DNA from: Actinocorallia populi | GTDB taxonomy: Bacteria; Actinomycetota; Actinomycetes; Streptosporangiales; Streptosporangiaceae | DNA length: 64,000 nt | Direction of reading: 5' to 3' | Assembly (NCBI RefSeq): GCF_002995495.1 | Contig: NZ_PVZV01000001.1 | Coordinates: 868,001-932,000 of the forward strand | In this document: positions 26,079 to 43,777 of the stretch, piece after piece | Numbering within the stretch: the stretch's first letter is position 1 | How the letters are laid out: the number at the start of each line of letters is the position of its first letter | The notes under the pieces: model-generated | The model's input: the letters and a program-made list of their open reading frames with translations, nothing else | What the model was told of the DNA's origin: nothing | The model's database searches: none | Made by a program: the position numbers and the translations under genes

Positions 26079-26096
26079 TTATCACCTCGCTGATAA
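26079..26096. promoter_or_regulatory. Palindromic operator upstream of the FAAL operon
   Basis: A 6-6-6 perfect inverted repeat, TTATCA-N6-TGATAA, centred about 109 bp before the FAAL start. Read on the minus strand (TTATCAGCGAGGTGATAA) it matches 16 of 18 bases of the site at 36061-36078 before the PKS. The region between this site and the start is more A/T-rich than coding DNA. It is probably a binding site for a regulator shared by both units; the PucR gene at 43847-45121 is a candidate for encoding it. Confidence 0.65.
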
Positions 26097-26196
26097 AAGG
26101 TCCGGATGGGTATCGTCTTGGCGGTTAGTGACCGGGTGTACCCCGATTCCGGTAGCCTCGCGAAGTCATACCCACGGCCCTCTCCTGGAGTCCTTC

Positions 26197-27981
26197 ATGG
26201 CATTGGGTTCACTGCTCCCCGATCTCAGCCTCCGCCCGCTGGTCGAGTCGTTGGCCGAGCACGCCGTGACCAAGCCCGATGCCAAGGCGTTCACGTTCGT
26301 CGACTACTCCAGTGACCGCGACGGCGCCAAACACACCCTCACCTGGGGCGAGGTCTGGCGCAGGACGCAGGCGACGGCCGTCGCGCTGCGCCGGATCGCC
26401 GAGCCGGGCGAGCGCGCCGCGCTGCTGCTGCCGCAGAGCCTGGACTACCTGACCGCGATGTGCGGCGCGTTCGCGTCCGAGATCGTGGCGGTGCCGCTGT
26501 TCTCGCCCGACCTGCCCGGCAACGCCGACCGGTTGATCCGCGCCTACTCCGACGCCGAGCCCGCCGTGATCGTGACGGTGCGCTCCGCGCTCCCCTACGT
26601 CGAGAAGTTCCTGGACGAGCACGAGGTGCCCCGGCCGCGCGGCATCGTGCTGTCCGACGAGCTCGACCCCGCGTCCGGTGCCGGCTGGGAGCTGCCCGAG
26701 CTGACCCCCGGCGACCTGGCGTACCTGCAGTACACCTCCGGGTCGACCAGCAGCCCCGCCGGAGTCGAGATCACCCACGGCGGGTTCGCCGCCAACGCCC
26801 GCCAGCTGTGGCGCTCCTGGAACCCGCCGGAGATCGAGACCTGCGAGGCGGTCACCTGGCTGCCGCTCTTCCACGACATGGGGCTGATCACCGCGCTGGC
26901 GCTGCCGCTGGTGAACGGCAACCACGTGATCCTCGCCGACCCGATGTCGTTCCTCATGCGCCCGATCCGCTGGATGCGGCTGCTGTCGGAGTGCCCGAAC
27001 GTCTACACCGCGGGCCCGAACTTCGCCTACGACTACGTGGCGGGCCAGGCCAACGACAAGAGCCTCGCCGGGATCGACCTCAGCGGCGTCAACGTGTGCC
27101 TGAACGGGGCCGAACCGGTCCGCCCGTCCACGCTCAAGGCGTTCAACGACGCGTTCGCCCCGGCCGGGCTGCGGCCCGGCGTGCTGCGCCCGGCCTACGG
27201 GCTGGCCGAGGCGACGGTCTTCGTCTCCGGCAGCTTCGTCACCAACCCCGATCCGGACGAGCCCGCCCGGCAGCTCGGCGTGGACCGCGAGGAGCTCACC
27301 CAGGGGCGGATCGTCCCGTCCGAGGCGGAGAACGCCCAGCACCTGGTCTCCTGCGGCGCGCCGCAGGGCCAGCTCGTCGCGATCGTCGACCCGGAGACCC
27401 GGCGCGAGCAGCCCGACGGCACCGTCGGCGAGATCTGGGTGCACGGGCCGAACGTCGGCCGCGGCTACTGGGGCAACGGCGAGCGCAGCGCCGAGACGTT
27501 CGGCGCCGTGATCGAGGACGCCGCCGAGGGGATCCCGGCCGGCGGCTGGATGCGCACCGGGGACTTCGGCGCGGTGCACGCCGGCGAGCTGTACGTGACG
27601 GGCCGGATCAAGGACCTCATCATCGTCGACGGGCGCAACCACTACCCGCAGGACATCGAGGTCACCACCGAGGAGTCCAGCCCGGCGATCCGGCCCGACT
27701 ACGTCGCGGCCTTCGCCATCCCCGGCGAGGAGACCGAGCGGCTGGTCGTGGTGGCCGAGCGCAACCGCCGGGTGCCGATCGCCAAGCTGGACCTGGCCGA
27801 GGTGGAGCGCGCCGTGCGCGCCGGGGTCAACCAGGTGCACGAGATGAGCATCCACGAGTTCGTGCTGATCGAACCGGGCTCCCTGTCCCGCACGTCCAGC
27901 GGGAAGGTCGCCAGGGCGGCGACCCGCACCCGTTACCTGGAAGGCGATCTGGTGCGCACCGCAGACCGTCTCACTCGCTGA
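26197..27981 (+). CDS. Fatty-acyl-AMP ligase (FAAL; FadD32-like)
   Basis: A 594-residue adenylating enzyme. Seen: the P-loop YTSGSTSSPAGV (from about residue 179), LPLFHDMGL, an adenine-site segment LNGAEPV, RTGDFGAV, GRIKDLIIVDGRNHYPQDIE and the C-terminal catalytic lysine in TSSGKVARAA (Lys570). The FHDMGL, NGAEPV and DLIIVDGRNHYPQDIE wording is that of FAALs, which activate long acids as acyl-AMP and pass them to a carrier protein and not to CoA. It starts an operon with the MMPL exporter (15 bases later) and two esterases. The likely acceptor is the N-terminal carrier of the PKS at 36185, as FadD32 loads Pks13. ATG 26197 has GGAG six bases upstream. Confidence 0.9.
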   Translation: MALGSLLPDLSLRPLVESLAEHAVTKPDAKAFTFVDYSSDRDGAKHTLTWGEVWRRTQATAVALRRIAEPGERAALLLPQSLDYLTAMCGAFASEIVAVPLFSPDLPGNADRLIRAYSDAEPAVIVTVRSALPYVEKFLDEHEVPRPRGIVLSDELDPASGAGWELPELTPGDLAYLQYTSGSTSSPAGVEITHGGFAANARQLWRSWNPPEIETCEAVTWLPLFHDMGLITALALPLVNGNHVILADPMSFLMRPIRWMRLLSECPNVYTAGPNFAYDYVAGQANDKSLAGIDLSGVNVCLNGAEPVRPSTLKAFNDAFAPAGLRPGVLRPAYGLAEATVFVSGSFVTNPDPDEPARQLGVDREELTQGRIVPSEAENAQHLVSCGAPQGQLVAIVDPETRREQPDGTVGEIWVHGPNVGRGYWGNGERSAETFGAVIEDAAEGIPAGGWMRTGDFGAVHAGELYVTGRIKDLIIVDGRNHYPQDIEVTTEESSPAIRPDYVAAFAIPGEETERLVVVAERNRRVPIAKLDLAEVERAVRAGVNQVHEMSIHEFVLIEPGSLSRTSSGKVARAATRTRYLEGDLVRTADRLTR

Positions 27982-27996
27982 TCCAGGGGGATCTCC

Positions 27997-30480
27997 ATGT
28001 ACGGCTGGGGTCGCTTCGTCCACCGGTTCCGCTGGCTCGTGCTGCTGGTCGCCACGCTCCTGACGGTCGGTGCGGGCTACGCCGGCCTCGGGGTGTTCCA
28101 GCCCGGCGTGCTCAAGCAGGGCGGTTTCGAGGACCCGTACGCCGACTCGACGTACGCCTACCAGCAGGCGGCCCTGGCGTTCGGCTCCGGCAGCCCGGAC
28201 GTGATGCTCGTCTACCGCAGCGACGAGCACAAGGTGACCGATCCGGAGTTCATGCAGTCGGTGCTGTTCACCACCGCGCGGCTGCCGAAGAAGCACGTCG
28301 AGAAGGTCTTCACCTACTGGCACATCGCGGGGAAGACGAAAGAGGCCAGGGACGGCCGCAAGAACATGATCTCGCACGACGGCCACAGCACGTTCGTGGC
28401 GCTGTTCGTGCAGAGCGACCCCGATCCCACCAAGGCCGACCAGGCCAAGGCCCAGAACTTCGAGGCCATCAAGGGCCTGGTCGAGGCGCCCGGGATGACG
28501 GTGAAGATCACCGGCGGCATCCCGATCGGCACGGACTTCGTCACCCAGATGAGCTCGGACATCCTGAACGCCGAGATCATCTCGGCGCCGCTGGTCCTGC
28601 TCATCGGGCTGGTCGTCTTCGGCAGCGTCGCCGCGGCGGTGCAGCCGATCCTCGTCGGGGTCTTCTCGGCCGTGGGCGCGCTGGGCGTGCTGCGCCTGAT
28701 CACCCTGATGACGGACGTCTCCAACCTGGCGATCTCGCTGGTCAGCCTGCTGTCGGTCGGCCTGGCGATCGACTACTCGCTCTTCGTCATCAGCCGGTTC
28801 CGGGAGGAACTGGCCAAGGGGCGAGATCCGCGGACGGCCATGGGCGTCACCATGGCCACGGCGGGCCGCACCATCACGTTCTCCGCCGTCACCGTCGCGG
28901 TCTCGATGGCGGGCCTGCTGCTGTTCCCGCAGGTGTTCCTGAAGTCGATCGGCCTGGTCGGCATCGCGGTCATCTTCGTCGCGATGCTCTCCACCATCGT
29001 GGTCCTGCCGGCGATGTTGTCGATCCTCGGGCCGCGCATCGAGTTCGGCCAGATGCCCTGGCGCAAGCGGGCGAAGAAGAAGGCCAAGCCCGAGGAAGAG
29101 GGCATGTGGTACCGCCTCGCGCACAGCGTGATGAAGCGGCCGATCATCTACTTCCTGGCCACCAGCGCGGTGCTCATCCTGCTCGTCCTGCCGTTCGGGC
29201 GGGTGAACTTCGGCGTCTCCGACCTCCGGTCGCTGCCGGCGGGGATGGAGAGCCGCCAGACGGCGGAGCTCATCCAGACCGAGTTCTCCTCCGGGGTCAT
29301 GGACCCGGTCAACGTGCTGCTCGAAGGCGCGCTGATACCGAAGAACTACAAGCCCGGCAAGGACGAGCTGCCCCAGAACCTGAAGAAGTTCCGGGACGAG
29401 GTGGCGGACCTGCCGGGCGTGGTCGCGGCCAGTTACAACAACACGAACCCCGACATGGGCATCGTGCAGCTGCAGGTGTCCTACGAGGGCGAGACGCACA
29501 GCGAGGAGACCCAGGAGCTCGTCCGGAAGCTGCGGGCCATGGACGAGCCGGGGGAACGGCCGGAAGCGATCAACCACATCAGCGTCGGCGGCAGCACCGC
29601 CGGCCAGATGGACCTGATGAAGAGCCTGGGCGAGGCGCTGCCCAAGACGGGCCTCTTCGTGGTGACCGCCATCTTCCTGCTGCTGTTCGCCGCGTTCGGC
29701 TCGATCGCGCTGCCGATCAAGGCGATCATCATGAACCTGCTGTCGATCGGCTCGTCGTTCGGCGCGATGGTGTGGGCGTTCCAGGACGGTCACCTGTCCG
29801 GGCTGCTCGGCTTCACCGTCACCGGCAACATCGACGCGACCGCGATGATCCTGGTGCTGTCGATCATCTTCGGCCTCTCGATGGACTACGAGGTCTTCCT
29901 GCTCAGCCGAATCCGGGAGGAGTGGGACAACACCCATGACAACCGGGCGGCGGTGGCGCGCGGCCTGCAGCAGACCGGCGGCATCATCACCAGCGCGGCC
30001 GTGCTGCTCATCGTGGTGGTCGCCGCCTTCTCGACCGCGAAGATCACCACGGTGCAGGTGCTGGGCGTCGGCCTGCTGGTCGCGGTCGTCGTCGACGCCA
30101 CGCTGGTGCGGTCGCTGCTGGTGCCCGCGACGATGCGCTTCCTCGGCGACGCCAACTGGTGGCTGCCGGGGCCGCTGAAGGCGCTGCACGCCGCGATCGA
30201 CCTGCGCGAGGTGCACGACATCGACCTGAGCGGGACGGGGGACAAGCAGCCCGCGGCGTCCGGGGGCCGCGGAGTGACGCGGGACACGTCGCGGACGCTG
30301 AAGGGGGAGGGGTACGGCGGCTACCGCCGGACCGTGGTCCAGGTGAACGGGGGTTACGCATGGGCCGGAGAAACCCGTCCAGGGACATCTGGACATCCAG
30401 CAAAGAAGCGTGAAATCGTGGCCAACCCTGACGGGACGGGCTGGCGATGGCGCGAGGTGGAGGATGAGTATGCGCACTGA
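27997..30480 (+). CDS. MMPL/RND family lipid transporter (MmpL3-like)
   Basis: An 827-residue inner-membrane RND protein: one N-terminal helix, a first periplasmic loop (about 35-185), a six-helix block, a second loop and another block. Both proton-relay pairs are present, Asp259-Tyr260 in GLAIDYSLF and Asp630-Tyr631 in GLSMDYEVF, at nearly the spacing known for MmpL3. A cytoplasmic tail of about 100 residues follows the last helix, ending in a charged region. In mycobacteria such proteins flip trehalose monomycolate; here the cargo is inferred to be the product of the FAAL/PKS pair. The last codons overlap the start of the next gene by about 11 bases. Confidence 0.9.
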   Translation: MYGWGRFVHRFRWLVLLVATLLTVGAGYAGLGVFQPGVLKQGGFEDPYADSTYAYQQAALAFGSGSPDVMLVYRSDEHKVTDPEFMQSVLFTTARLPKKHVEKVFTYWHIAGKTKEARDGRKNMISHDGHSTFVALFVQSDPDPTKADQAKAQNFEAIKGLVEAPGMTVKITGGIPIGTDFVTQMSSDILNAEIISAPLVLLIGLVVFGSVAAAVQPILVGVFSAVGALGVLRLITLMTDVSNLAISLVSLLSVGLAIDYSLFVISRFREELAKGRDPRTAMGVTMATAGRTITFSAVTVAVSMAGLLLFPQVFLKSIGLVGIAVIFVAMLSTIVVLPAMLSILGPRIEFGQMPWRKRAKKKAKPEEEGMWYRLAHSVMKRPIIYFLATSAVLILLVLPFGRVNFGVSDLRSLPAGMESRQTAELIQTEFSSGVMDPVNVLLEGALIPKNYKPGKDELPQNLKKFRDEVADLPGVVAASYNNTNPDMGIVQLQVSYEGETHSEETQELVRKLRAMDEPGERPEAINHISVGGSTAGQMDLMKSLGEALPKTGLFVVTAIFLLLFAAFGSIALPIKAIIMNLLSIGSSFGAMVWAFQDGHLSGLLGFTVTGNIDATAMILVLSIIFGLSMDYEVFLLSRIREEWDNTHDNRAAVARGLQQTGGIITSAAVLLIVVVAAFSTAKITTVQVLGVGLLVAVVVDATLVRSLLVPATMRFLGDANWWLPGPLKALHAAIDLREVHDIDLSGTGDKQPAASGGRGVTRDTSRTLKGEGYGGYRRTVVQVNGGYAWAGETRPGTSGHPAKKREIVANPDGTGWRWREVEDEYAH

Positions 30481-31483
30481 ACCGCTGCGGCGTCTCGGAG
30501 TGGTGGTCACGTCGGCGGCGCTGCTGGCCGCGGTCGTACCCGGCACGGCGAACGCCGCGCCCCGGCTCAAGTTCAAGGCCGCTTCCACCGGTGCGAAGAT
30601 CATCGACTACAAGTGGGTCAGCAAGAACAAGCGGCAGATGGACATCACCATCAAGACGCCGTCGCTGCCGGACGGCAACCCCAAGGTCCGGCTGCTGCTG
30701 CCCAAGAAGTGGTCGATGAAGTCCAAGAAGACCTGGCCGATCGTGTACCTGCTGCACGGCGGCCACGACAGCTACATCTCCTGGACGAAGAACTCCTCGA
30801 TCGAGACGATGGCCGCCAAGTACGACGTCATCGTCGCGATGCCCGAGGGCGCCAACGGCTCGTACACCGACTGGTACAACTACGGGAAGTTCGGCACGCC
30901 CAAGTGGGAGACCTTCCACATGACGGAGGTCTACCAGCTCATGGAGCGCAACTTCCGGGTGAGCAAGTCCCGCGCCGTGATGGGCAACTCCTCCGGCGGC
31001 ATGGGCGCGATGGGCTACGCCGCCCGCTACAAGGGCCGCTTCAAGTACGCCGCGTCCCTCAGCGGCCTGCTGCACCTGCGCGCCCCGTTCATCCCGCAGT
31101 TCCTCGACCAGATCAACAGCGGCAACGGCCAGGACCCGGACGCGATCTGGGGCCGCTACCCGGCCGACGCGGAGAACTGGAAGCTGCACAACCCCTACGA
31201 CCTGGCCGCCGGTCTGAAGGGCACGAAGGTGTTCTTCTCGTCCGGCCTCGACGGCCAGCCCGGCGAGGGCGACCCGAACGTCGACCCGTGGGACCTCGGC
31301 CTGGTCTCGGAGAAGTGGACCGGTTACACCAACCAGTACTTCAAGCGCAGGCTCAACAGCCTGAAGATCCCCCACGTCTCCCACCTGTACGGCAAGGGCC
31401 GCCACAACTGGCCCGCGTGGCGCCGGGAGACCGCGTTCGTCTGGCCCCGGATCATGAAGACGATCGGTGCCAAGCGGTACTGA
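30470..31483 (+). CDS. Secreted antigen-85-like esterase / acyltransferase, operon copy 1
   Basis: A 337-residue PF00756-type protein with a Sec signal peptide (VVVTSAALLAAVVPGTANA). The nucleophile is Ser174 in GNSSGGMG, and a His lies in the C-terminal GRHNWPAW, which aligns with the HSWEYW of antigen 85. Other shared blocks are VYLLHGGHDSYISWT, DWYNYGKFG and KWETFHMTEVYQLMERNF. The start at 30470 is chosen because GGAGG sits six bases upstream; ATG 30464 is close by. It overlaps the MMPL gene and is 19 bases from its paralog, so it belongs to the operon. It could transfer exported acyl groups to a wall sugar or another lipid. Confidence 0.83.
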   Translation: MRTEPLRRLGVVVTSAALLAAVVPGTANAAPRLKFKAASTGAKIIDYKWVSKNKRQMDITIKTPSLPDGNPKVRLLLPKKWSMKSKKTWPIVYLLHGGHDSYISWTKNSSIETMAAKYDVIVAMPEGANGSYTDWYNYGKFGTPKWETFHMTEVYQLMERNFRVSKSRAVMGNSSGGMGAMGYAARYKGRFKYAASLSGLLHLRAPFIPQFLDQINSGNGQDPDAIWGRYPADAENWKLHNPYDLAAGLKGTKVFFSSGLDGQPGEGDPNVDPWDLGLVSEKWTGYTNQYFKRRLNSLKIPHVSHLYGKGRHNWPAWRRETAFVWPRIMKTIGAKRY

Positions 31484-31502
31484 GACCCCCTGAGCAGGAT
31501 CG

Positions 31503-32507
31503 ATGACCCCCCGCCACCGCTCCACCCCCCGCCGCCTCGGCGCGCTCGCCCTCGCCGGCGTTCTGTCGCTGTCCGTGATACCCGCCTCGGGCGCTCCCGC
31601 CGCGGCCGCTCCCGCCTTCCGCAAGGCCGACAACGGCAGCGCGATCGTCGCCTACAAGTGGCTGACGAAGAACAAGCGGCAACTCGACATCTCGGTGAGG
31701 TCCAAGGGCCTCGGCAAGACCGAGAAGGTGAGGATGCTGCTGCCCAAGGGCTGGAAGCGGAACACGAAGAAGACCTGGCCCGTCGTGTACCTCCTGCACG
31801 GCGGCCGGGCCGGTTACCAGTCCTGGTACAAGAGCTCCACCATCAGGACGCTCGCCGCCAGATGGGGCGTCATCGTCGTCATGCCCGAGGGCCGCAACGG
31901 CTCGTACACCAACTGGTACAACTACGGGAACTACGGCATCCCCGAGTGGGAGACCTTCCACATGACGGAGGTCTTCCAGCTCGTCCAGCGCAACTTCCAC
32001 GCGGGTTCCCGCCGCGCCGTGCTGGGCAACTCCTCCGGCGGCATGGGCGCGATGGGCTATGCCGCCCGCCACAAGGGCCGGTTCAAGTACGCGGCTTCGT
32101 TCAGCGGCGTCCTCTCCCTGCTCTCCCCGGGCGTCCCCGCAGCCCTGAAGGAAGTCAACGCAGGGAGCGGAAACGGCGACTTCAACGCCATCTACGGCGA
32201 CCCCGAGGAGAACCGCGACAACTGGGTGGCCCATGACCCGTTCTCCCTGGCCGAGAACCTCAGGGGCACCAAGCTCTACTTCACCTCGGGCAGCGGCGCC
32301 CCCATCCCCACCGACATCGCCTTCTTCTCCGAGTACATCGTCGGCATGACCAACGGCGACTTCAAGAAGCGCCTCAACGCCCTCAAGATCCCCCACAAGT
32401 CGTACATCTATTCCGGCGGCACCCACGCCTGGCCGTACTGGAAACGCGAACTCAAGAAGGCCTGGCCCACCGTCATGAAGACCCTCAAGGCCAAGAAGAC
32501 CACCTGA
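31503..32507 (+). CDS. Secreted antigen-85-like esterase / acyltransferase, operon copy 2
   Basis: A 334-residue paralog of the preceding gene. It has a signal peptide (LGALALAGVLSLSVIPASGAPAAAA), nucleophile Ser177 in GNSSGGMG, the blocks VYLLHGGRAGYQSWY and EWETFHMTEVFQLVQRNF, and a C-terminal His in GGTHAWPYW. The last motif is the closest of the three window copies to the antigen 85 HSWEYW. Having two in one operon suggests different acceptors, as with the multiple Ag85 proteins of mycobacteria. The last gene of the FAAL operon. Confidence 0.83.
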   Translation: MTPRHRSTPRRLGALALAGVLSLSVIPASGAPAAAAPAFRKADNGSAIVAYKWLTKNKRQLDISVRSKGLGKTEKVRMLLPKGWKRNTKKTWPVVYLLHGGRAGYQSWYKSSTIRTLAARWGVIVVMPEGRNGSYTNWYNYGNYGIPEWETFHMTEVFQLVQRNFHAGSRRAVLGNSSGGMGAMGYAARHKGRFKYAASFSGVLSLLSPGVPAALKEVNAGSGNGDFNAIYGDPEENRDNWVAHDPFSLAENLRGTKLYFTSGSGAPIPTDIAFFSEYIVGMTNGDFKKRLNALKIPHKSYIYSGGTHAWPYWKRELKKAWPTVMKTLKAKKTT

Positions 32508-32603
32508 GCCGGCACATCGGCTTCCGGCCAACGGCCCGCGGCCAGGAATTACTCTGAGCCTCGGCAGGGTCGAGCCCGCCGAGCAGGTTCGGGGAGGTGC
32601 GTC

Positions 32604-33170
32604 ATGACGGCTGAGATGGTCACTCCGGCGTGGATGCATGAGCAGGTCACGGCGGAGCAGTACGACTCCTGGACCGAGGAGCAGTGCGAGGGCATCGAAA
32701 TCGTGGACGGGATGGTGGTCGTGAGTCCCAGCGCATCCCAACGGCATGACCGTCTCGCCAGGCTCCTGGCGAACGCTTTGGAGGACGCCGCGGGGCAGGA
32801 CTGGAACGCCGACACGGACTTCGACGTCCGGTTGCAGGACGTGCCGCTCTCCAATCGCCGTCCAGACGTCGTCGTGTACCGGGCGGACACGCTCGACGTC
32901 GTACCCACCCGCCCGGAGCATGTACTGCTGGTGGCCGAGGTCGTTTCACCGGGTTCGGAGACGACCGACCGGATCGTGAAGACGGAGCAGTACGCGAAGG
33001 CCGGTATCGCCTTCTACTGGCGGGTCGAGCAGGCTGCCACCGGTGTTCCGCTGGTGTACACCTATGTCCTCGATCCGGCGGCGGGCGTGTACCGGGAGGG
33101 CGACGTGTTCGCCGGCGTGGTCAAGGTGTCGGCGCCTTTCCCGGTGGAGGTCGATCTCGGCTCGCTCTGA
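32604..33170 (+). CDS. Uma2 family (DUF820) putative restriction-endonuclease-fold protein
   Basis: A 188-residue protein of the Uma2 family, common in many copies in actinomycetes and cyanobacteria. Family marks are the early VDGMVVVSPSASQRHDRLARLL, and the PD-(D/E)xK-type core RRPDVVVYR...LLVAEVVSPGSETTDRIVK followed by EQYAKAGIAFYWRVE. Catalytic Asp, Glu and Lys are all present. The role is unknown. It lies 96 bases after the second esterase with no clear terminator between, but is probably an unrelated passenger of the locus. Confidence 0.85.
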   Translation: MTAEMVTPAWMHEQVTAEQYDSWTEEQCEGIEIVDGMVVVSPSASQRHDRLARLLANALEDAAGQDWNADTDFDVRLQDVPLSNRRPDVVVYRADTLDVVPTRPEHVLLVAEVVSPGSETTDRIVKTEQYAKAGIAFYWRVEQAATGVPLVYTYVLDPAAGVYREGDVFAGVVKVSAPFPVEVDLGSL

Positions 33171-33179
33171 GGTCGTTCT

Positions 33180-34427
33180 TCAGGGCTGGAGGAGGTCGAG
33201 GGCCTCGCAGGCGCGGGCCACACCGTCCTCGGCGTTGAGGGACTCCGAGAGGGAACGGGCCCGGGTGCGGTAGGGGGGTTTGACGAGGTCCTGGAGGCGG
33301 GAGGCCAGGGCGTCGGTGGTCAGGGCGGACGCGGGCAGGGGGGAGGGGCCGGCGCCCAGGGCGTGGACGCGGTCGGCCCAGTAGGGCTGGTCGCCGAAGA
33401 AGGGGCAGACCAGGGACGGGGCGGCGGCCTTCAGCGCCTCGGCGGTGGTGCCGGCGCCGCCGTGGTGGACGACGCCCGCCATCCGGGGGAAGAGCCAGTT
33501 GAAAGGGATGTTCTGGACGACGAACATGTCGTCCTCCGGCTCCGCGGTGGTGCCGGGCTGGGGGGAGAGGACGCCGCGCAGGCCCGCCCGGCGGAGGGCC
33601 GCGCGGATCTGGCGGTCGGTGGCGGCGGGGTCCTTGGTGGCCATGCTGCCGAAGCCCACGTAGACGGGCGGGGGGCCGTCGTCCAGGAAGCGCAGCAGAT
33701 CGGCGGGAGGTTCCCAATGGGGTTGCTCCAGGAACCAGAAGCCGGTCAGGTGGACGTTCTCGGGCCAGTCCGCGGGGCGCGGGACCAGGGTGGGGCTGAA
33801 CGCGCACAGGACGGGGGCGCGGCGGGCGGCGGGCAGCGGGCCGCGCCAGGAGAGCTTCGTCAGGCCCAGACGGCGGACGCGCCAGGGGTCGAGGAAGGGG
33901 CGGCACAGCTGCCAGGTCACCCAGTCCAGGAGCTCGAAGCTCAGGCGGTTGGCGTTCGGGCCGAGCAGGCGGGCCCGGGGGAGGAACGGGTGGGGGAAGG
34001 CCCGGGTCGGGTGGGACGGCTGGAAGTGCACGATGGCGTGCGGGACGCCCAGGTGCTCGCTCAGGTGGTGGCCGAGGAAGCCGAGCGTCGGGGCGAGGAA
34101 CAGGTCGGCGCCGTCGGCTCCCGCGACCACCTCCCGCAGCAGCCGGTCGGCCAGGGGCCGCGCGATGCGCTGGAGGTTGCGCAGGAACCTGACGGGGTTG
34201 CGGCCGCCGCCGAGGAGCTCCTGGCCCTCGGGTGAGTTCACGATCCGCGTGGGGTCCAGGGAGAGCGGGGCGAAGCCCAGCCCCGCGCCGGTGATCAGCT
34301 CCCGGTACTGCTCGCTGGAGATGAGGCGCACCTCGTCGCCGCGGTCGGCCAGGCCGCGGCCGAGGGCGACGCACGGCTGCAGGTCGCCGCGGGAACCGGC
34401 CGCGAAGATCACTACTGTCCGGCCCAT
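33180..34427 (-). CDS. GT1/MGT-type glycosyltransferase
   Basis: A 415-residue GT-B enzyme. The N-terminal domain starts TVVIFAAGSRGDLQPCVALGRGL, typical of sterol and lipid glucosyltransferases. The C-terminal sugar-nucleotide site shows VYVGFGSMATK, VVHHGGAGTTAEAL and CPFFGDQPYWADRV. The closest style is that of transferases that glycosylate lipids or macrolides, including the mycobacterial glycopeptidolipid enzymes. It follows an MFS exporter gene with an 18-base gap on the same strand, and the pair is divergent from the PKS, so the product may be glycosylated. The start has AGGCAGG upstream. Confidence 0.88.
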   Translation of the reverse strand: MGRTVVIFAAGSRGDLQPCVALGRGLADRGDEVRLISSEQYRELITGAGLGFAPLSLDPTRIVNSPEGQELLGGGRNPVRFLRNLQRIARPLADRLLREVVAGADGADLFLAPTLGFLGHHLSEHLGVPHAIVHFQPSHPTRAFPHPFLPRARLLGPNANRLSFELLDWVTWQLCRPFLDPWRVRRLGLTKLSWRGPLPAARRAPVLCAFSPTLVPRPADWPENVHLTGFWFLEQPHWEPPADLLRFLDDGPPPVYVGFGSMATKDPAATDRQIRAALRRAGLRGVLSPQPGTTAEPEDDMFVVQNIPFNWLFPRMAGVVHHGGAGTTAEALKAAAPSLVCPFFGDQPYWADRVHALGAGPSPLPASALTTDALASRLQDLVKPPYRTRARSLSESLNAEDGVARACEALDLLQP

Positions 34428-34445
34428 GTCCTGCCTTTCTCGGGG

Positions 34446-36023: not shown

Positions 36024-36060
36024 TTAGCCCCCATCAAGTCATATTTCGGGGCCGGAGCTC

Positions 36061-36078
36061 TTGTCATCGAGGTGATAA
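36061..36078. promoter_or_regulatory. Palindromic operator between MFS and PKS genes
   Basis: An imperfect 6-6-6 inverted repeat, TTGTCA-TCGAGG-TGATAA, centred about 115 bp upstream of the PKS start and about 47 bp from the MFS start. It matches 16 of 18 bases of the minus-strand reading of the site at 26079-26096 before the FAAL. Similar distance to the start in both cases argues that the site is functional. It could control both divergent units. Confidence 0.65.
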
Positions 36079-36184
36079 GGAACACCCGGGATTCGTGGTC
36101 CGCGTGCGAAGAGAGATGCGGCCAAACCAGGACAAGGTGGTCCCTCCGCACCGACCCATGCCACCACCTTGGGGGAGCCTCACC

Positions 36185-39100
36185 ATGCCGGAAACCGTAG
36201 GTTCCCGATCCGCGGAGTCGGGCAATCCGCAGCTCCAGGTTGAGATCCGAAATTTCCTCATCAATGAGATAGCACATCGTGCCGCACTGGTGCCCGGTGA
36301 AGTGGATGTGGATCAGCCCCTCGAGGAGTTCGGCCTGGCCTCCCGCGACGCCGTCGCGATCGCCGGCGAGCTCGAGGAGCTGCTCGGCCGCTCGCTGCCC
36401 GCCACGCTGGTCTGGGAGCACCCGACCATCAGCCGGATCGCCGCCGCGCTCAGCGGCGGAGCCGTCCCCGAGGAGACCGCCGCGCCCCGGAGCGCCTCGG
36501 CGGCCTCGAGCGACGAGCCGATCGCCGTGGTGGGCATGGGCTGCCGCTTCCCCGGCGGGATCAACGGACCCGAGGACTTCTGGCGCTTCCTCCTGGAGGA
36601 GGGCGACGCGATCGGCGAGGTGCCCGAAGGCCGCTGGGACGCCTTCGACGACGGCTCGCCGGAGATCGCGGACCTGCTCGGGAAGGTGACCCGCCGGGGC
36701 GGCTTCCTGGACGACATCGCCGGCTTCGACGCGCGGTTCTTCGGCATCACCCCGCGCGAGGCGGCCGTCATGGACCCGCAGCAGCGCCTGCTGCTGGAGG
36801 TGGCCTGGGAGTCGCTGGAGCACGCCGGCATCGCCCCCGCCGGGCTGCGCGGCACCCGCACCGGCGTCTTCGTCGGCGTCTCGGCCCCCGAGTACGCGGG
36901 CCTGACCGCCTCCGACCTGACCCGCCTGGAGGCGTTCACGGCCACCGGCGCGGCGCTCAGCATCGTCGCCAACCGCCTGTCGTACCTGCTCGACCTGCGC
37001 GGCCCGTCCATGATCGTGGACACCGCCTGCTCCTCCTCCCTCGTCTCGACCCACCTGGCGGTCCAGTCGCTGCGCAGCGGCGACAGCGACGTGGCCCTGG
37101 CGGGCGGCGTGAACGTGCTGCTCTCGCCGACCATCACGATGACGTTCGACGCGGCGGGCGGCACCGCCGCGGACGGACACTGCAAGGCGTTCGACGCTTC
37201 GGCGGACGGGATGGTTCGCGCCGAGGGCTGCGGCGTCGTCGTCCTGAAGCGGCTCTCGGACGCCCGCCGCGACGGCGACCGCGTCCTGGCCGTCATCACC
37301 CGGTCCGGCGTCAACTCCGACGGCCGCTCCAACGGGATGGTCGCGCCGAACGCCGAGGCGCAGAAGACCCTGCTGCGCGAGGTGTACGCCGCCGACCGCG
37401 ACCTGGACTACATCGAGGCGCACGGCACCGGCACCTTCCTGGGCGACCCGATCGAGGCCAGGGCGATCGGCGAGGTGCTCGGCGGCGGCCGCACCGAGCC
37501 GCTGCTGCTCGGCTCGGTCAAGTCCAACCTCGGCCACATGGAGGCCGCCGCGGGCGTCGCGGGCCTGATCAAGACGGTGCTGTCCCTGCGGAACCGGACG
37601 ATCCCCGCCTCCCTGCACTTCACCGAGCCCAACCCGCACATCCCGTTCGACGAGCTGAACCTCGCGGTCGCCGCCGAGCGCACGCCCTGGCCGTCCCGCG
37701 AGGGGCGCCCGCCGCGCGCCGGCGTGTCGGCGTTCGGGTTCGGCGGGACCAACGCCCACCTCACGCTGGAGGCGGTCGAGGAGCCCGCGCGGACCGTCGA
37801 GCCGGTCCCGGTGCGCACGTTCCCGCTGTCCGACGCCGCGGCCGACCGCATCGCCGACTACGCGAAGGTCCTGCTCGAGGAGCTGGACGCCGCCGAACCG
37901 GCGGACCCGGCGGACATGGCCGCGACGCTCCGCCGCCGCGACCCGCGCGGACGCGCGCGGGCCGCGGTCGTCGCCCGCGACCTGGACGGGCTGCGCGCGG
38001 GCCTGACCGCGCTGGCCGAGGGCGCCCCCCACCCGGGCGTGGTCACCGGCACGGCGGTCGGCACGCCGGGCCGCCCGGTGTTCGTCTTCTCCGGGTACGG
38101 CGCGCAGCGCCCCGGCATGGCGCAGTCCCTGCTGGCGGAGGAGTCGGCGTTCGCCGAGGCGATCGACGACCTGGACGCCCTCTTCGTCGAGGAGGCCGGT
38201 CTCGCGCTGTGGGACCTGCTGGAGAGCGGCCGCATGCCCGAGGGCCCGGCCGAGATCATGCCGGTGCTCTTCGCGGTGCAGGTCGGCCTGGCCCGGATGT
38301 GGAGCTCCTACGGGATCGAGCCCGCCGCGGTCATCGGCCACTCGATGGGCGAGGTCGCCGCGGCCGTCGTCTCCGGGGCGCTCACCCCCGCCGACGGCGT
38401 CAAGGTGATCGTGCGCCGGTCGCGGCTGATGACGGCGCTGGTAGGCGGCGGCGGCATGGCCGTGCTCGGCTGCGGCCTGCCGGAGCTGGCCGGATACGAC
38501 GGCCCCGAGGTGCACCCGGCGGTGTTGTCCTCACCGCGCCAGACCGTGGTGACCGGCGAGAACGAGGCGATCGAGGCGGTGCTGGCCTGGGCGTCGGGTC
38601 TCGGCCACCTGGCCCGCCAGGTCAAGGCCGAGGGTGCGGGCCACTCCCCGCAGGTCGAGCCGCTGCTGCCGGAGCTGCGGGAGCTGCTCGCCGAGCTGAA
38701 GCCGAGGACCGGCACGGTCCCGATGTACACGACCGCGCTGGAGGACCCGCGCAAGCTGCTCGACGGCTCGGCCCCCCTGGACGCCGAGTACTGGGCCGCG
38801 AACCTGCGCAACCCCGTCCGGCTCGCGGACGCGGTCACCGCCGCCGCGCAGGACGGGCACCGCACGTTCGTCGAGGTCAACGCCCACCCGATCCTGTCGA
38901 TGGCGGTCGGGGAGACCCTGGAGGGCTCCGGAGCGCTGGTCACGCACTCGCTCAGGCGCGCCCCCAAGGGGCAGGAGACCGACGACACGCTGACGTTCCA
39001 CGCCCGGCTCGCCGAACTGGCCGTGCACGGGCACCGGACGGCGGCGCCCGCCGACGGCGCGCTCGTCGACCTGCCGCGCGCCCCGTGGCGGCACGAGCGG

Positions 39101-42100
39101 CACTGGGCGGACGGCGCCCGCCGCGTCGCCGGGAGCGACGTGCACCCGCTGCTCGGCTCGCACGTCGAGCTGCCCGGCGAGGAACGCCACGCCTGGCAGG
39201 GCGGGATCACCTGGGACGGCCCGCTGCTGCCCGCGGCCGCCGTGGCCGAGATGGCGCTGGCCGCCGGCGCGGAGACCGGCGCGGACACCGTCCAGGGCCT
39301 GGCGCTCCACCGGCTCGTGGCGCTGTCGGACGGGACGACGCTGAGCACCACGCTCTCCGAGGACGGCCAGGTCGAGATCCACACCCGCACCCCGGCCGGA
39401 ACGTGGGCGCGCGTCGCGTCCGCCGAGACCGTCCTGGCCGCGGGGGAGCCGGCGGACCTCGAGGGGGGCGCGGTCTCCACCGTGGAGGCGGCCGTGCGCG
39501 GCAGCCGCCACTACCGGCTGCACCCCGAGGTCTTCGACCGCTGCCTGAGGCTGCTCTCCGCCGAGGTCGGCGAGCCCGGGTGGCTGCCGGAGTCGATCGC
39601 CGAGCTGCGCGTCCTCGGCCCCACCCACCGGGGCGGGCGCTGCCGGGTGCGCGTCGAGCACACCGACCGCGGCGTGATCGGCGAGGTCCGCCTCCACGGC
39701 GAGGACGGCGCCCTGCTGCTCGCCGCGAGCGGGATCGCCCTGTCCCGGCCGGAGGACGTGCCGGTGCCGCTGGCGGACAAGCTCGTCGAGAGCGTCTGGG
39801 CGCCTTCGGAGCTGCCCGCCGAAGACGGCGGCGAGCCGGAGGGCGTGCTGGTCGCCGACGACCTGGACTGGTCGGACGCCGAGGCGGCCGTGAAGGCGCT
39901 GCTCACCCCGCAGACCCGGCACGTGGTGCTGGTCCCGCCGGTGCGGGACGAGGCGCTGGTGCTGGCCGTGGCGGGGGCGACGCGGGCCCTGACGTCGCAG
40001 CGGTTGTGGCTGGTCACCCGGGGCGCGCAGCCGGTGCTGCCCGCCGAGGCGGGCCGGCCCGAGCAGAGCTTCCTCACCGCGCTGGTCCGGGTGCTCGGCT
40101 TCGAGCAGCCCGGCCTGCGCGCCACCCTGATCGACCTGCCCGGCGGGCCGGACGGGCGGCTGGCCGAGGCCGAGCTCGCCCTCGTGCGGCGCGAGGTCGC
40201 CGCCGCGACCGCCGACACCGAGATCGCCTGGCGCGACGGGAGGCGCCACACCAGCCGGCTGGCCGCCGCGAGCCTGCCCGAGGGCAGGCCGCGCAGGGTC
40301 GTCCGGCGCGGCGGCTCCTACATCATCACCGGCGGTTACGGCGGCATCGGGCTGGTCACCGCCCGGCTCCTGGCCGAGCGCGGCGCGGGCCGGATCGTCC
40401 TGTCGGGCCGTTCGGGCCCGTCGCCGGAGGGCGAGAAGGCCATCGCGAGGCTGCGCGAGTCCGGGGTGGACGTCGGGGTGGTGCTCGGCGACATCGCCGC
40501 CGAGGGCATGGCGGAGCGGCTGGTCGCGGTCGCCCGCGAGGGCGGCCGCAAGCTGTGCGGCATCGTCCACGGCGCCGCCGGGATGGCCGACCGGCTGGTC
40601 GCCGAGATCGGTCCCGAGGACCTCCACAGGGTGTGGACGCCGAAGGTCGCCGGCGCCTGGCGCCTGCACGAGGCGGCTCCCGACGACCTCGACTTCTTCG
40701 CCGTGCACTCCTCGGCCGCGGCCCTGCTCGGCTCGCCGGGCCAGGGCTCCTACGCCGCGGCCAACGCCGCGCTCGACGCGCTCGTCGCCCACCGGCGCGC
40801 GCGGGGCCTGTCCGGCACCACGATCAACTGGGGCACCTGGTCCCAGGTCGGCGGCGCCACCGACGCGGGCGTCACGGTCATCGAGCCGATCTCCCCGCAG
40901 GAGGGCACCGAGGCGCTGGAGGCCCTGCTGGCCTTCGACCGCCCCTCGACCGGCGTGCTGCGCTTCGACGCGGCCAAGGCGGTCGAGCTGTTCCCCGAGA
41001 TCAAGCGCATGCCGTTCTACGAGGCGCTCGTCGCCGCCGCGGGCACGGCCGCCGCCCAGGACGACTGGGCGGGCCCGGACGCGCTGCGCGGCCTGCCCCC
41101 CGAGGAGGCGCGCAAGGCCATCCGCGGCCGGGTGCTGCAGCGGGTGTCGTCCATCCTCGGCTTCGACGCCGCCCGGCTCGACCCGTCCGTGCCGCTCACC
41201 GAGCTGGGCCTGGACTCCCTGGTCGCGGTACGGATCAAGAGCGCGATCGAGCACGACCTCGGCCTGACGGTCCCGCCCTCGGTGCTGCTGCAGGGCGCGA
41301 GCGTCGACGTCTTCGAGGAGTGGGCGGCCGGCGAGCTCGGCATCGGCGGGACCGCCGGGCGCGAGCAGGACGACAGCGGCTACGTGATGCCGCGCGACGC
41401 CGCCGAGCGCACCGCCGTCCGGTTGTTCGAGGAGCAGCTGGGCCTCGAGCGGGTGAGCGTCGTGGAGAACTTCTTCGAGCTGGGCGGCCAGGAGCACCAG
41501 GCCGACCAGATCCACGCGGCCCTCGCCGCCGAGTTCCGCACGAAGTTCGACCGGATGGAGCTGTTCGCCAACCCGACGGCCGAAGGCGTCGCCGACGTCA
41601 TCCGGGCGGTGGAGGAGGAGGCCGCGCGGCAGACCGTCCGGCCCCTGCAGCCGCTCGGCGCAGGGCGCCCCTTCTTCGCGGCGCACCCGGCGGGCGGCAC
41701 CACCGGCTGCTACCGGCAGCTCGCCGAGCTGACCGGCACCGCGCAGCCGTTCTACGGGCTGGAGCGCTGGGAGGACGCGCCCAGTGTCGAGGAGCGCGCC
41801 GCCCGGTACGTCGAGCACATCCTGGCCACCCAGCCGGAGGGCCCCTACCGGCTCGGCGGCTGGTCCTTCGGCGCCACCCTCGCCTACGAGACCGCGCAGC
41901 AGCTCCGCGCGGCCGGGCACGACGTCGAGTTCGTGGCGCTGTTCGACGGCGGGGTGCCGCTGCCGACCGACGACGACGAGGACAACCTCGCCAAGCGGTT
42001 CGCGGGGTTCGCCGCCTATCTCACCGAGACGTACGGGATGGAGGTGGAGCTGGAGTACGAGGAACTGGCCGGAAAGAGCGAGGACGAGATGTTCGCGCTC

Positions 42101-42427
42101 GTCGCCGAACGGGCCGCACCCGTGATGGCGTCGCTCCCCCCGGCCGTCCTGCACCACCAGCTGACCTCGCACCAGGACACCCGAACGCTGGAGAGGTACA
42201 CCTACCGCCCGTACGACGGCCGGGTGATCCTCTACAAGGCGCCTCTGCCCACTCCCTGGGCGGTGCAGGACGCGCGTTACATCGACCTCGACGACACCAA
42301 CGGCCTCGGCCCGCTGTGCCCCCGCCTGGAGATCGTCGAAGTCACGGACACGCATCACCTCAACCTGCTGGACCCGCCCGGAGTGCACCTCATCGCCGCG
42401 CATCTGGCGGGGGAGCTGGCCCGTTGA
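36185..42427 (+). CDS. Pks13-like type I polyketide synthase
   Basis: A 2080-residue multidomain enzyme. Domains: N-terminal carrier (about 17-95; Ser53 in FGLASRDAV, like the Pks13 FadD32-loaded carrier), KS (about 109-535; Cys282 in TACSSS, His in EAHGTGT), AT (about 632-953; Ser720 in GHSMGE; later motif GAGH), a DH-fold region (about 987-1190) in which the HxxxGxxxxP segment is missing, KR (about 1200-1555; TGGYGGIG and a Ser/Tyr/Asn site), carrier (about 1634-1715; Ser1678 in GLDSL), a second carrier-like domain (about 1739-1802) with Glu1770 at the Ser position, and TE (about 1828-2080; Ser1894 in GWSFG). It should condense a FAAL-loaded fatty acyl with an alkylmalonyl unit, reduce the beta-keto group and keep the hydroxyl. 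ATG 36185 has GGGGGAG upstream. Confidence 0.9.
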   Translation: MPETVGSRSAESGNPQLQVEIRNFLINEIAHRAALVPGEVDVDQPLEEFGLASRDAVAIAGELEELLGRSLPATLVWEHPTISRIAAALSGGAVPEETAAPRSASAASSDEPIAVVGMGCRFPGGINGPEDFWRFLLEEGDAIGEVPEGRWDAFDDGSPEIADLLGKVTRRGGFLDDIAGFDARFFGITPREAAVMDPQQRLLLEVAWESLEHAGIAPAGLRGTRTGVFVGVSAPEYAGLTASDLTRLEAFTATGAALSIVANRLSYLLDLRGPSMIVDTACSSSLVSTHLAVQSLRSGDSDVALAGGVNVLLSPTITMTFDAAGGTAADGHCKAFDASADGMVRAEGCGVVVLKRLSDARRDGDRVLAVITRSGVNSDGRSNGMVAPNAEAQKTLLREVYAADRDLDYIEAHGTGTFLGDPIEARAIGEVLGGGRTEPLLLGSVKSNLGHMEAAAGVAGLIKTVLSLRNRTIPASLHFTEPNPHIPFDELNLAVAAERTPWPSREGRPPRAGVSAFGFGGTNAHLTLEAVEEPARTVEPVPVRTFPLSDAAADRIADYAKVLLEELDAAEPADPADMAATLRRRDPRGRARAAVVARDLDGLRAGLTALAEGAPHPGVVTGTAVGTPGRPVFVFSGYGAQRPGMAQSLLAEESAFAEAIDDLDALFVEEAGLALWDLLESGRMPEGPAEIMPVLFAVQVGLARMWSSYGIEPAAVIGHSMGEVAAAVVSGALTPADGVKVIVRRSRLMTALVGGGGMAVLGCGLPELAGYDGPEVHPAVLSSPRQTVVTGENEAIEAVLAWASGLGHLARQVKAEGAGHSPQVEPLLPELRELLAELKPRTGTVPMYTTALEDPRKLLDGSAPLDAEYWAANLRNPVRLADAVTAAAQDGHRTFVEVNAHPILSMAVGETLEGSGALVTHSLRRAPKGQETDDTLTFHARLAELAVHGHRTAAPADGALVDLPRAPWRHERHWADGARRVAGSDVHPLLGSHVELPGEERHAWQGGITWDGPLLPAAAVAEMALAAGAETGADTVQGLALHRLVALSDGTTLSTTLSEDGQVEIHTRTPAGTWARVASAETVLAAGEPADLEGGAVSTVEAAVRGSRHYRLHPEVFDRCLRLLSAEVGEPGWLPESIAELRVLGPTHRGGRCRVRVEHTDRGVIGEVRLHGEDGALLLAASGIALSRPEDVPVPLADKLVESVWAPSELPAEDGGEPEGVLVADDLDWSDAEAAVKALLTPQTRHVVLVPPVRDEALVLAVAGATRALTSQRLWLVTRGAQPVLPAEAGRPEQSFLTALVRVLGFEQPGLRATLIDLPGGPDGRLAEAELALVRREVAAATADTEIAWRDGRRHTSRLAAASLPEGRPRRVVRRGGSYIITGGYGGIGLVTARLLAERGAGRIVLSGRSGPSPEGEKAIARLRESGVDVGVVLGDIAAEGMAERLVAVAREGGRKLCGIVHGAAGMADRLVAEIGPEDLHRVWTPKVAGAWRLHEAAPDDLDFFAVHSSAAALLGSPGQGSYAAANAALDALVAHRRARGLSGTTINWGTWSQVGGATDAGVTVIEPISPQEGTEALEALLAFDRPSTGVLRFDAAKAVELFPEIKRMPFYEALVAAAGTAAAQDDWAGPDALRGLPPEEARKAIRGRVLQRVSSILGFDAARLDPSVPLTELGLDSLVAVRIKSAIEHDLGLTVPPSVLLQGASVDVFEEWAAGELGIGGTAGREQDDSGYVMPRDAAERTAVRLFEEQLGLERVSVVENFFELGGQEHQADQIHAALAAEFRTKFDRMELFANPTAEGVADVIRAVEEEAARQTVRPLQPLGAGRPFFAAHPAGGTTGCYRQLAELTGTAQPFYGLERWEDAPSVEERAARYVEHILATQPEGPYRLGGWSFGATLAYETAQQLRAAGHDVEFVALFDGGVPLPTDDDEDNLAKRFAGFAAYLTETYGMEVELEYEELAGKSEDEMFALVAERAAPVMASLPPAVLHHQLTSHQDTRTLERYTYRPYDGRVILYKAPLPTPWAVQDARYIDLDDTNGLGPLCPRLEIVEVTDTHHLNLLDPPGVHLIAAHLAGELAR

Positions 42428-42460
42428 TCGATGACGCCGCGACCAAGCCGAGGAAGAGAC

Positions 42461-43777
42461 ATGTCTGACCTGCTCCAGGCCGTGGTCAACGGCGCCTCCC
42501 CCGAGGAGCTGCTCGCCACCGAGCTTCCCGCATCGTTCCGCGCCGCCTACACGCTGCGCGACGAAGTGGGCATCTTCGAGGGCGAGACCGACAAGGACGT
42601 GCGCCGGTCCATTCACGTCGGCGAGGTCGCCATGCCGGAGATCGCGCCGGACGAGTGCATCGTCGCGGTGATGTCCGCGGCGATCAACTTCAACACCGTC
42701 TGGTCGGCGATCTTCGAGCCGGTCCCGACCTTCGCCTTCCTCGAGAAGTTCGGCAGGCAGGGCTGGTACGGCGCCCGGCACGACCTGCCGTACCACATCC
42801 TGGGCTCGGACGCCTCCGGCGTGGTGGTCCGCACCGGCGTGGGCGTCAAGAACTGGAAGGTCGGCGACAAGGTCGTCGTCTCGCCCGCGTACGTGGACGA
42901 GGAGGACCACGCCTCCTACGACGACGGCATGATGACCGAGACCCAGCTCGCCTGGGGCTTCGAGACCAACTTCGGCTCGCTCGGCGAGTTCTGCGTCGTC
43001 AAGGCCAACCAGCTGATCAGGAAGCCGGCGCACCTCACGTGGGAGGAGTCGGCGTCCAACACCCTGTGCGCCGCCACCGCCTACCGCATGCTGGTCGGCA
43101 GGCACGGCGCGCGGATGAAGCAGGGCGACGTCGTCCTGGTCTGGGGCGGCACCGGGGGCCTGGGCTCCTACGCCACCCAGCTGGTCAAGAACGGCGGCGG
43201 CATCCCGGTCGCGGTCGTCGGCTCCGAGGCCAAGGCCGACCTGGTGCGCAGGCAGGGCGTCGAGCACGTCATCAACCGCAGCGAGCTGGGCCTGGGCGCC
43301 GAGGGCTTCCGCCACCGCAAGGCCGGGCGCGTCCTCGGCGAGGCGATCCGCGCGCAGGTCGGCGAGGACCCGCAGATCGTCTTCGAGTACCTCGGGGCGG
43401 AGACCTTCGGCGCCTCGGTGTACGTGGCCAAGCGCGGCGGAAAGATCGTCACCTGCGGCTCGTCCACCGGCTACCAGCACCAGTACGACAACCGGTTCCT
43501 GTGGATGCGGCTGAAGAGCATCGTCGGCTCGCACGGCTTCAATTACCACGAGGCCGTCGAGACCAACCGCCTCATCGGCCTGGGCATGATCCACCCGACG
43601 CTGTCGAAGGTCTTCGACCTCGACGGCGCGGGCGAGGCCACCCGCGCCGTCCAGACCAACCAGCACGTCGGCAAGGTCGCCGTGCTGTGCGCCGCCCCCG
43701 AGGAGGGCCTGGGCGTCGACGACCCGGCGCTGCGCGAGAAGGTCGGCGAGGACAAGATCAACCTCTACCGCGGCTGA
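42461..43777 (+). CDS. Crotonyl-CoA carboxylase/reductase family enzyme (CCR)
   Basis: A 438-residue NADPH-dependent reductive carboxylase that turns 2-enoyl-CoA into alkylmalonyl-CoA. Family marks: NFNTVWSAIFEP, HILGSDASGVVVRTG, WGFETNFGSLGEF, nucleotide site WGGTGGLGSYATQL, and SHGFNYHEAVETNRLIGLG. Residues that bind CO2 in known CCRs (Asn in NFN, Phe-Glu in GFE, His in GSH) are kept, so carboxylation is expected. Where crotonyl-specific enzymes read SHFANY, this one reads SHGFNY, which may widen the acyl pocket. It starts 33 bases after the PKS on the same strand and surely supplies its AT. Start ATG 42461 has AGGAAG upstream. Confidence 0.9.
   Translation: MSDLLQAVVNGASPEELLATELPASFRAAYTLRDEVGIFEGETDKDVRRSIHVGEVAMPEIAPDECIVAVMSAAINFNTVWSAIFEPVPTFAFLEKFGRQGWYGARHDLPYHILGSDASGVVVRTGVGVKNWKVGDKVVVSPAYVDEEDHASYDDGMMTETQLAWGFETNFGSLGEFCVVKANQLIRKPAHLTWEESASNTLCAATAYRMLVGRHGARMKQGDVVLVWGGTGGLGSYATQLVKNGGGIPVAVVGSEAKADLVRRQGVEHVINRSELGLGAEGFRHRKAGRVLGEAIRAQVGEDPQIVFEYLGAETFGASVYVAKRGGKIVTCGSSTGYQHQYDNRFLWMRLKSIVGSHGFNYHEAVETNRLIGLGMIHPTLSKVFDLDGAGEATRAVQTNQHVGKVAVLCAAPEEGLGVDDPALREKVGEDKINLYRG

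Follow-up and report, generated by a model that had tools for sequence, protein, structure and literature searches.

Can an assembly and export system of the mycolic acid type exist in an actinomycete outside the mycolate order? The question is raised by a gene block at 26128-43777 of a 64,000-nucleotide window (the whole stretch of DNA analysed, to which all positions refer) of the 8.25 Mb genome of Actinocorallia populi, whose genus NCBI places in the order Streptosporangiales, family Thermomonosporaceae. The block comprises, in order, genes for a fatty acyl-AMP ligase (FAAL), an MMPL exporter, two PF00756 esterases of the antigen 85 (Ag85) fold, a Uma2-type endonuclease, a glycosyltransferase, an MFS pump, a type I polyketide synthase (PKS) and an enoyl-CoA carboxylase/reductase (CCR). 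The glycosyltransferase and pump genes lie on the other strand. Family profiles confirmed the FAAL, the MMPL, the two secreted Ag85-like esterases, the PKS and the CCR that an initial annotation of this DNA had listed, all with high GC content at third codon positions in their assigned frames; that inventory had omitted the glycosyltransferase, the pump, a third esterase at 11902-12966, a PucR-family regulator, and a dehydratase-like domain and a third carrier within the synthase.

On sequence grounds, the locus appears to be a novel form of the mycolate kind of condensation system outside the mycolate order, with a predicted product. It likely works as the mycolate system does and is probably kin to it through the descent of its ketosynthase, while its exporter, ligase, carboxylase and domain order each set it apart from membership proper. 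Among the matches listed in a search of titles and abstract openings in the open-licence literature, no report of such a locus was found, which is weak evidence of novelty. Mycolic acid synthesis is a main target of tuberculosis drugs. A locus outside the mycolate order in which a Pks13-like synthase is accompanied by its own FAAL and by Ag85-fold esterases would mark a possible origin of the pathway. It would also supply naturally occurring relatives of Pks13 and Ag85 that act on other substrates and could help to explain the serine-less third carrier of Pks13.

A synthase probably related to Pks13

The PKS gene (36095-42427, forward strand) encodes 2110 residues, and all of its domains lie on the same strand. 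It opens with an N-terminal acyl carrier (ACP1, 36242-36469) bearing GLASRDAV at residues 80-87, followed by a ketosynthase (KS, 36515-37771) with its Cys and both His motifs intact, an acyltransferase (AT, 38078-39016) with a GAGH motif, a dehydratase (DH)-like domain that lacks the catalytic His (39143-39751) and a ketoreductase (KR, 40313-40843; PF08659, 2.2e-55) that keeps its Ser and Tyr. A second carrier with an LGLDSL motif (ACP2, 41129-41311; PF00550), a third carrier-like domain recognised by alignment and devoid of the attachment Ser (GGQE; 41387-41626), and a thioesterase (TE, 41669-42424) complete the protein. The opening GLASRDAV carrier, the internal KR and the terminal TE had all been described in the initial annotation.

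In a KS tree of 58 rows, the synthases of this cluster, Pks13 and the FAAL-linked synthases of three further families (f19, f20 and f48) formed one group, with support of 96/92, against 27 other PKSs. A smaller KS tree united Pks13 and the FAAL-PKSs at 94/77. Near-copies and long branches of the own genome were thinned by hand from the KS, MMPL and esterase trees; from the 58-row tree L258 and L136 were dropped, and L189, the twin of L136, stayed. A clade joining the cluster KSs to Pks2/MAS-type KSs to the exclusion of Pks13 was rejected (p 2.6e-5), and a tree with the Pks13 KS outside the other FAAL-PKSs was not (p 0.386).

Two further regions agree with this grouping. Among solved structures the TE is nearest to that of Pks13, at 130 bits, the next family reaching 75. 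The serine-less carrier that precedes it aligns with the ACP3 region of Pks13. There, too, the TE is preceded by a third carrier that lacks Ser, whose role is described as unknown in part of PMC9900942. For ACP1, the nearest carriers outside the cluster, among the loci compared, were those of the f19 FAAL-PKSs and of the Pks13 loci. The domain order differs from that of Pks13, which has no KR, in that the DH-like domain and the KR sit between AT and ACP2; the remaining order matches. The KS tree, the TE and the third carrier together indicate that the synthase is probably kin to Pks13, with moderate support in the KS (92/73 to 96/92 across the trees), in keeping with the Pks13-like PKS of the initial annotation.

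Predicted chemistry

We surveyed the active-site motifs of the window PKS and 21 relatives, hereafter the 22 cluster synthases. The KS motifs are kept across the set, the AT carries GAGH in 22/22, and the KR retains Ser and Tyr in all 22, with a damaged NADPH motif in one (L077). The catalytic His of the DH, in the motif that we take to be the relevant one, is kept in none of the 22 and is present in the two f19 relatives L180 and L181. An active DH was accordingly discarded for the cluster synthases. Because the DH His is lost throughout while the KR residues are kept, a 2-alkyl-3-hydroxyacyl product is likely.

The CCR gene (42431-43777, forward strand) starts 3 bases behind the PKS and encodes a protein scoring 502 bits against TIGR01751 (cut-off 378.55). 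The top-scoring solved structure is CinF (4a0s, octenoyl-CoA reductase/carboxylase; 564 bits), followed by the crotonyl-CoA reductase 6na4 (498 bits), presumably the Kitasatospora enzyme. At positions 163 and 362, which we assume from CinF work to set the chain length in CCRs, the window enzyme shares the small residues Ala and Gly with CinF, the corresponding residues of 6na4 being Ile and Phe; cluster CCRs with sequence at these sites carry Ala in 17/17 and Gly in 15/15 rows. Because of these CinF-like residues, the CCR suggests a branch of medium length. Part of PMC5719088 calls CinF a 2-octenoyl-CoA carboxylase, and a Val-to-Gly change is described as widening the related enzyme AntE in an excerpt of PMC6164871. 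For Corynebacterium bovis, a portion of PMC8733736 reports mycolic acids whose branches are short (C6-C8). The intact KR and the CinF-like CCR fit the earlier proposal of a 2-alkyl-3-hydroxy acid formed by an internal KR from a CCR-derived alkylmalonyl unit.

In the scheme that we propose, the FAAL would activate a fatty acid and load it onto the N-terminal carrier of the PKS. The CCR would convert a medium-chain, octenoyl-like 2-enoyl-CoA into an alkylmalonyl-CoA, to be loaded by the AT, and the KS would carry out a single Claisen condensation. The KR would then reduce the ketone, the dead DH leaving the 3-hydroxyl in place, and the TE would pass the product to a sugar or to water. A sugar would be added by the glycosyltransferase, the lipid would be exported by the MMPL, perhaps with the MFS pump, and the secreted esterases would transfer acyl groups outside the cell.

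The glycosyltransferase (33180-34427, reverse strand; PF06722/PF03033) is closest among solved structures to the sterol glucosyltransferase 5xvm (186 bits; GtfB, 105 bits), and the DHA2-type pump (34446-36023, reverse strand; TIGR00711, 242.9 against a cut-off of 230.2) is transcribed divergently from the PKS. With both genes in the block, a glycolipid is a more probable product than the plain fatty acid ester first suggested. We infer both product and acceptor; our favoured reading, which we hold to be fairly likely, is a locus for the synthesis and export of a glycolipid whose acyl part is a 2-alkyl-3-hydroxy fatty acid, short and similar to a mycolic acid.

Ligase, exporter and secreted esterases

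The FAAL gene (26128-27981, forward strand; PF00501, 8.5e-61; NF038339 and PRK05850 matches) has fatty-acid-AMP ligases as its best NCBIfam matches. Against solved structures its product scored 438 bits with 5icr ('Acyl-CoA synthase'), 437 with FadD32 and 415 with FadD23.

The MMPL gene (27997-30480, forward strand; PF03176, 1.1e-84) starts 15 bases behind the FAAL. Its product carries the motifs IDYSLF (residue 258) and MDYEVF (residue 629), and MmpL3 has Asp-Tyr at the same aligned places. The Asp-Tyr pairs of the initial annotation are thereby confirmed; such pairs are common in the wider MMPL family and are not specific to MmpL3. Among solved structures the protein reached 358 bits with MmpL3 and 99 with MmpL4, and by sequence it resembles MmpL3 more than MmpL4/5. 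In trees the MMPL falls in a wider group with MmpL3, outside the MmpL3 clade. The nearest MmpL3 relatives outside the mycolata in the tree are L150 and L151 (family f21), not the locus MMPLs.

Bit scores against the mycobacterial NCBIfam models were below cut-off for all three proteins tested: 1203 bits for the PKS with NF040607 (Pks13; cut-off 2100; 2583-2845 for 11 mycolata Pks13 proteins), 552 for the FAAL with NF038339 (FadD32; cut-off 975) and about 434-441 for the MMPL with NF052608 (MmpL3; cut-off 1400). With the last model, lone MMPLs of other families scored up to 630, more than the window protein, and second MMPLs of mycolata, by inference MmpL11-like, up to 426; its scores were thus set aside as proof of MmpL3 type.

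Esterase 1 (30464-31483, forward strand; PF00756, 2.5e-30) lies in the frame of the open reading frame 30410-31483, and the start proposed for it lies inside the last bases of the MMPL gene; esterase 2 occupies 31503-32507 (forward strand; PF00756, 9.1e-33). Both have N-termini that resemble signal peptides by eye. Among solved structures esterase 2 matched 'Protein PS1' at 1.7e-34, the next at 9.4e-15. An AlphaFold2 model of esterase 2 (pLDDT 83.9) has the mycoloyltransferase A of C. glutamicum as its best fold match (Z 30.9, rmsd 2.9 over 281), followed by Ag85A (Z 28.6) and S-formylglutathione hydrolases (from Z 26.6). The Ser/Glu/His triad columns are kept in the cluster esterases, and in 9/11 mycolata genomes the best match of esterase 2 sits in the fadD32-pks13 neighbourhood. 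The esterase tree, built without an outgroup and with short or poorly covered rows dropped, places cluster esterases and mycoloyltransferases on two sides of one branch. In predicted sequence and modelled fold, the esterases are mycoloyltransferase-like, in keeping with their first description as Ag85-like. A third Ag85-fold esterase gene (11902-12966, forward strand), a paralogue outside the block, groups with the cluster esterases in the tree.

Conservation across Streptosporangiales

FAAL matches at E <=1e-80 occur in 160 of the 297 genomes of the order. A close FAAL (<1e-150) is present in 98 genomes, every one of which also has the esterase (<1e-59; 98/98), as against 8 of the 199 others. 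We compared 35 hand-picked FAAL neighbourhoods of 20 kb each (20 of a closer set and 15 around other FAALs), scoring gene presence by tblastn. An MMPL gene adjoins the FAAL in 27 of them (20/20 of the closer set and 7/15 of the rest). The PKS is present in 22 (21 of this family, and L086, whose KS lies outside the group), the MFS pump in 20, with one weak match at 27% identity besides, the esterase in 20, and the glycosyltransferase in 18, to which L070 adds a partial match. The CCR is present in 16; a number of stretches stop short of its position.

Seven closer-set genomes without the PKS in their stretch carry it elsewhere (7/7, 61-70% identity), six on the same contig at gaps of about 20-59 kb and one on another contig. 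In Nonomuraea gerenzanensis the FAAL, MMPL, pump and glycosyltransferase stand together; some 10 kb beyond them come an esterase and, next to it, the PKS, within which the stretch ends. Its syntenic recurrence across many genomes shows the set to be conserved rather than assembled by chance, and in relatives the genes are found together and not scattered.

One FAAL of the comparison, in L086 (G278:C3), is another that is directly followed by PKS genes; the DH His is kept there, and this looks like a separate lipopolyketide locus.

Comparison with mycobacterial systems

The obvious reference is the FadD32-Pks13-AccD4 system of Mycobacteriales, with CmrA, MmpL3 and Ag85. The Actinocorallia locus shares with it a FAAL that would feed an N-terminal carrier, the KS group, the serine-less third carrier, a Pks13-type TE, an MMPL exporter and secreted esterases of the Ag85 fold. 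Unlike that system, it has a synthase with an internal KR and a dead DH, a CCR in place of an acyl-CoA carboxylase, a glycosyltransferase and MFS pump in the block, and MMPL and FAAL proteins from other clades. No carboxyl transferase, such as the AccD4 that adjoins pks13 and fadD32 in the mycolate locus, was found among the 20 genes at 18.5-47.7 kb covered by the Pfam-type scan. Of the 'same four roles' as in mycobacteria that had been claimed for the locus, two come down to likeness, and kinship is probable for the other two; the MMPL and the FAAL fall outside the respective clades.

The acyltrehalose and sulfolipid loci of mycobacteria, whose layout is FAAL-Pks-MmpL with Pap and Chp, are similar in combining a FAAL, a PKS, an MMPL and an outside acyl transfer. 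In these loci the transfer step outside is assigned to Chp2 in part of PMC4183827. They differ in their Pks2-type synthases (the L248 PKS, for instance, scored 2009 bits against NF041183), the joint clade of cluster and Pks2/MAS-type KSs being rejected as above, and no Pap gene was found among the same 20 genes.

Weighing the readings

Several results weigh against a mycolate-like reading of the locus. The KS group loses support, to 92/73, once two long own-genome rows (L258) are added, against 29 other PKSs. As a whole domain, the AT scored up to 223 bits with Pks2/MAS-type ATs and 227 with one other PKS, against 174 with Pks13 ATs. In a quick tree the FAAL belongs to its own clade (support 97), beside the separate FadD32-containing clade (100) and another mycolata FAAL clade, a placement that rules it out as FadD32. 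A single clade of cluster MMPLs and MmpL3 was rejected by the approximately unbiased test (p 2.0e-6), which removes the MmpL3 correspondence originally claimed, and the MMPL groups with MMPLs that occur without the other locus genes. The esterases lack the LDGLRA motif and have LHGG or LSGG at this position, presumably the sugar site of mycoloyltransferases; an outgroup added to their tree had rows too long to place the root. The arabinogalactan arabinosyltransferase family is absent from 14/14 non-mycolata genomes tested, the window genome included, and present in 3/3 mycolata, so the mycobacterial wall acceptor is missing. Finally, the glycosyltransferase, pump, esterase or PKS is absent from a number of the 20-kb stretches, and the association of esterase and close FAAL has exceptions: of five such genomes without a close FAAL (from the eight) inspected for the PKS, G212 has a full match (67% identity), G022 and G152 partial ones (64% and 68%), and G115 and G144 matches of only 49-50%.

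The absence of the arabinosyltransferase agrees with the host having been taken for a non-mycolate actinomycete. In part of PMC6113628, mycolic acids are described as a derived character common to Corynebacteriales and as lacking in Streptosporangiaceae and Thermomonospora.

The main rival reading is that the product is not an envelope lipid at all. It would instead be a secreted specialised glycolipid, for example a glycosylated 2-alkyl-3-hydroxy acid macrodiolide (of the glucolipsin or fattiviracin type), or a beta-lactone (as in lipstatin-like compounds), whose units the esterases join or free after secretion. The glycosyltransferase, nearest to a lipid glucosyltransferase, and the DHA2 pump, related to drug exporters, would both suit such a compound, as would the patchy distribution in the order (98/297 genomes by FAAL) and the CinF-type CCR, which serves specialised metabolism in the portion of PMC5719088 cited above. 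An envelope lipid is the better fit to an MMPL beside the FAAL in 27/35 neighbourhoods and to esterases nearest mycoloyltransferases. In genus g19, moreover, 51 of the 56 genomes among the FAAL matches listed come to 1e-150, an unusual breadth for a specialised product. We regard a secreted specialised product as unlikely.

A second alternative concerns the extender unit. With ethylmalonyl- or methylmalonyl-CoA, the 3-hydroxy acid would have a 2-ethyl or 2-methyl branch and would bear little resemblance to a mycolate. Methylmalonyl-CoA is the substrate of the Pks2/MAS-type ATs, to which the whole AT is nearer, and rules based on AT motifs have little predictive power. GAGH also occurs in 3/6 aligned Pks13 ATs, which speaks against a short extender; the motif alone was dismissed as proof of a Pks13-like AT in view of the whole-domain scores. 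The position of the CCR 3 bases behind the PKS, with small residues of the CinF type in every locus that has sequence at those sites, also argues for a longer unit, and a short extender seems rather improbable to us.

That the likeness reflects only broad families (FAAL, PKS, MMPL and PF00756) with no shared pathway is very unlikely, for although the MMPL and FAAL fall outside the mycobacterial clades, three proteins score below the NCBIfam cut-offs and KS support is moderate, the KS groups with Pks13, the TE and third carrier agree, esterase 2 has its best match beside fadD32-pks13 in most mycolata genomes, and the triad of FAAL, PKS and esterase recurs in three more families.

Related loci in other actinobacterial families

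In a class sample of 394 genomes, searched at a FAAL threshold of E <=1e-125, such FAALs occur outside family f1 in f6 (the mycolata), f19, f20 and f48. Eight of nine further stretches hold the FAAL beside a PKS of the KS group and an esterase, L287 having the FAAL alone. Of the two earlier f19 stretches, L181 has an esterase and L180 is without one, none being found in the L180 genome at 1e-8. These loci resemble the Actinocorallia block in combining the three genes and, in f20 and f48, in a PucR neighbour. They differ in that no MMPL match was found in the f19, f20 and f48 FAAL-PKS-esterase stretches and, for f20, in a PKS without DH or KR and a carboxylase gene upstream.

The f20 synthases (3 loci) have KS, AT, carriers and TE, with no DH or KR by Pfam. 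The best-scoring model for the L283 PKS is Pks13 (1161 bits, cut-off 2100), and an acyl-CoA carboxylase beta gene lies upstream in both f20 loci checked (L283 and L285). By its predicted genes the f20 locus is close to the mycobacterial layout. The L285 carboxylase was rejected as AccD4, since it scored 520 bits with 9t97_D4a, which we take to be an AccD4-type chain, against 701 and 606 with PccB/AccD5 types. A plasmid search with the f20 PKS returned 180 records, all below 60% identity, with no FAAL-linked PKS among the matches listed, and a phage search gave no match.

In L282-L285 (f20, genus g79, probably Streptomyces), a FAAL, a minimal carrier-KS-AT-carrier-TE synthase of the Pks13-like kind and an Ag85-like esterase stand side by side.

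A wider reading, which we offer tentatively and hold to be more doubtful than the glycolipid product itself, is that mycolic acids are a late branch of an older and broader actinobacterial pathway. Its core would consist of three proteins (FAAL, Pks13-family synthase and Ag85-fold esterase), found in Streptosporangiales, probable Streptomyces and two further families. The Streptosporangiales branch would make and export a short mycolate-like acyl glycolipid and transfer it to the cell surface of bacteria regarded as lacking mycolic acids, and Pks13 would have arisen from such a synthase by losing its reducing domains.

Neighbouring genes

A PucR-family regulator gene (43847-45142, reverse strand; PF13556) adjoins the block and is probably part of the locus. 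Its relatives adjoin the CCR in L058, L065, L077, L079 and L088, and the esterase in 4/4 f20 loci; one is also found in L286 (f48). A regulator of the PucR type thus recurs beside the loci in several families, even where the CCR is absent; an HTH_30 protein is found near the f19 FAAL in L180.

The Uma2-type endonuclease gene inside the block (32604-33170) has a relative in 0/49 neighbourhoods compared and was excluded as a locus member; it is possibly an insertion. Upstream genes were excluded likewise: in the same 49 neighbourhoods the gene at 24755 is without a match, and that at 22689 matches L267 only. Further upstream lies a tandem pair of PGA_cap genes of the capsule synthesis type (18535-20716).

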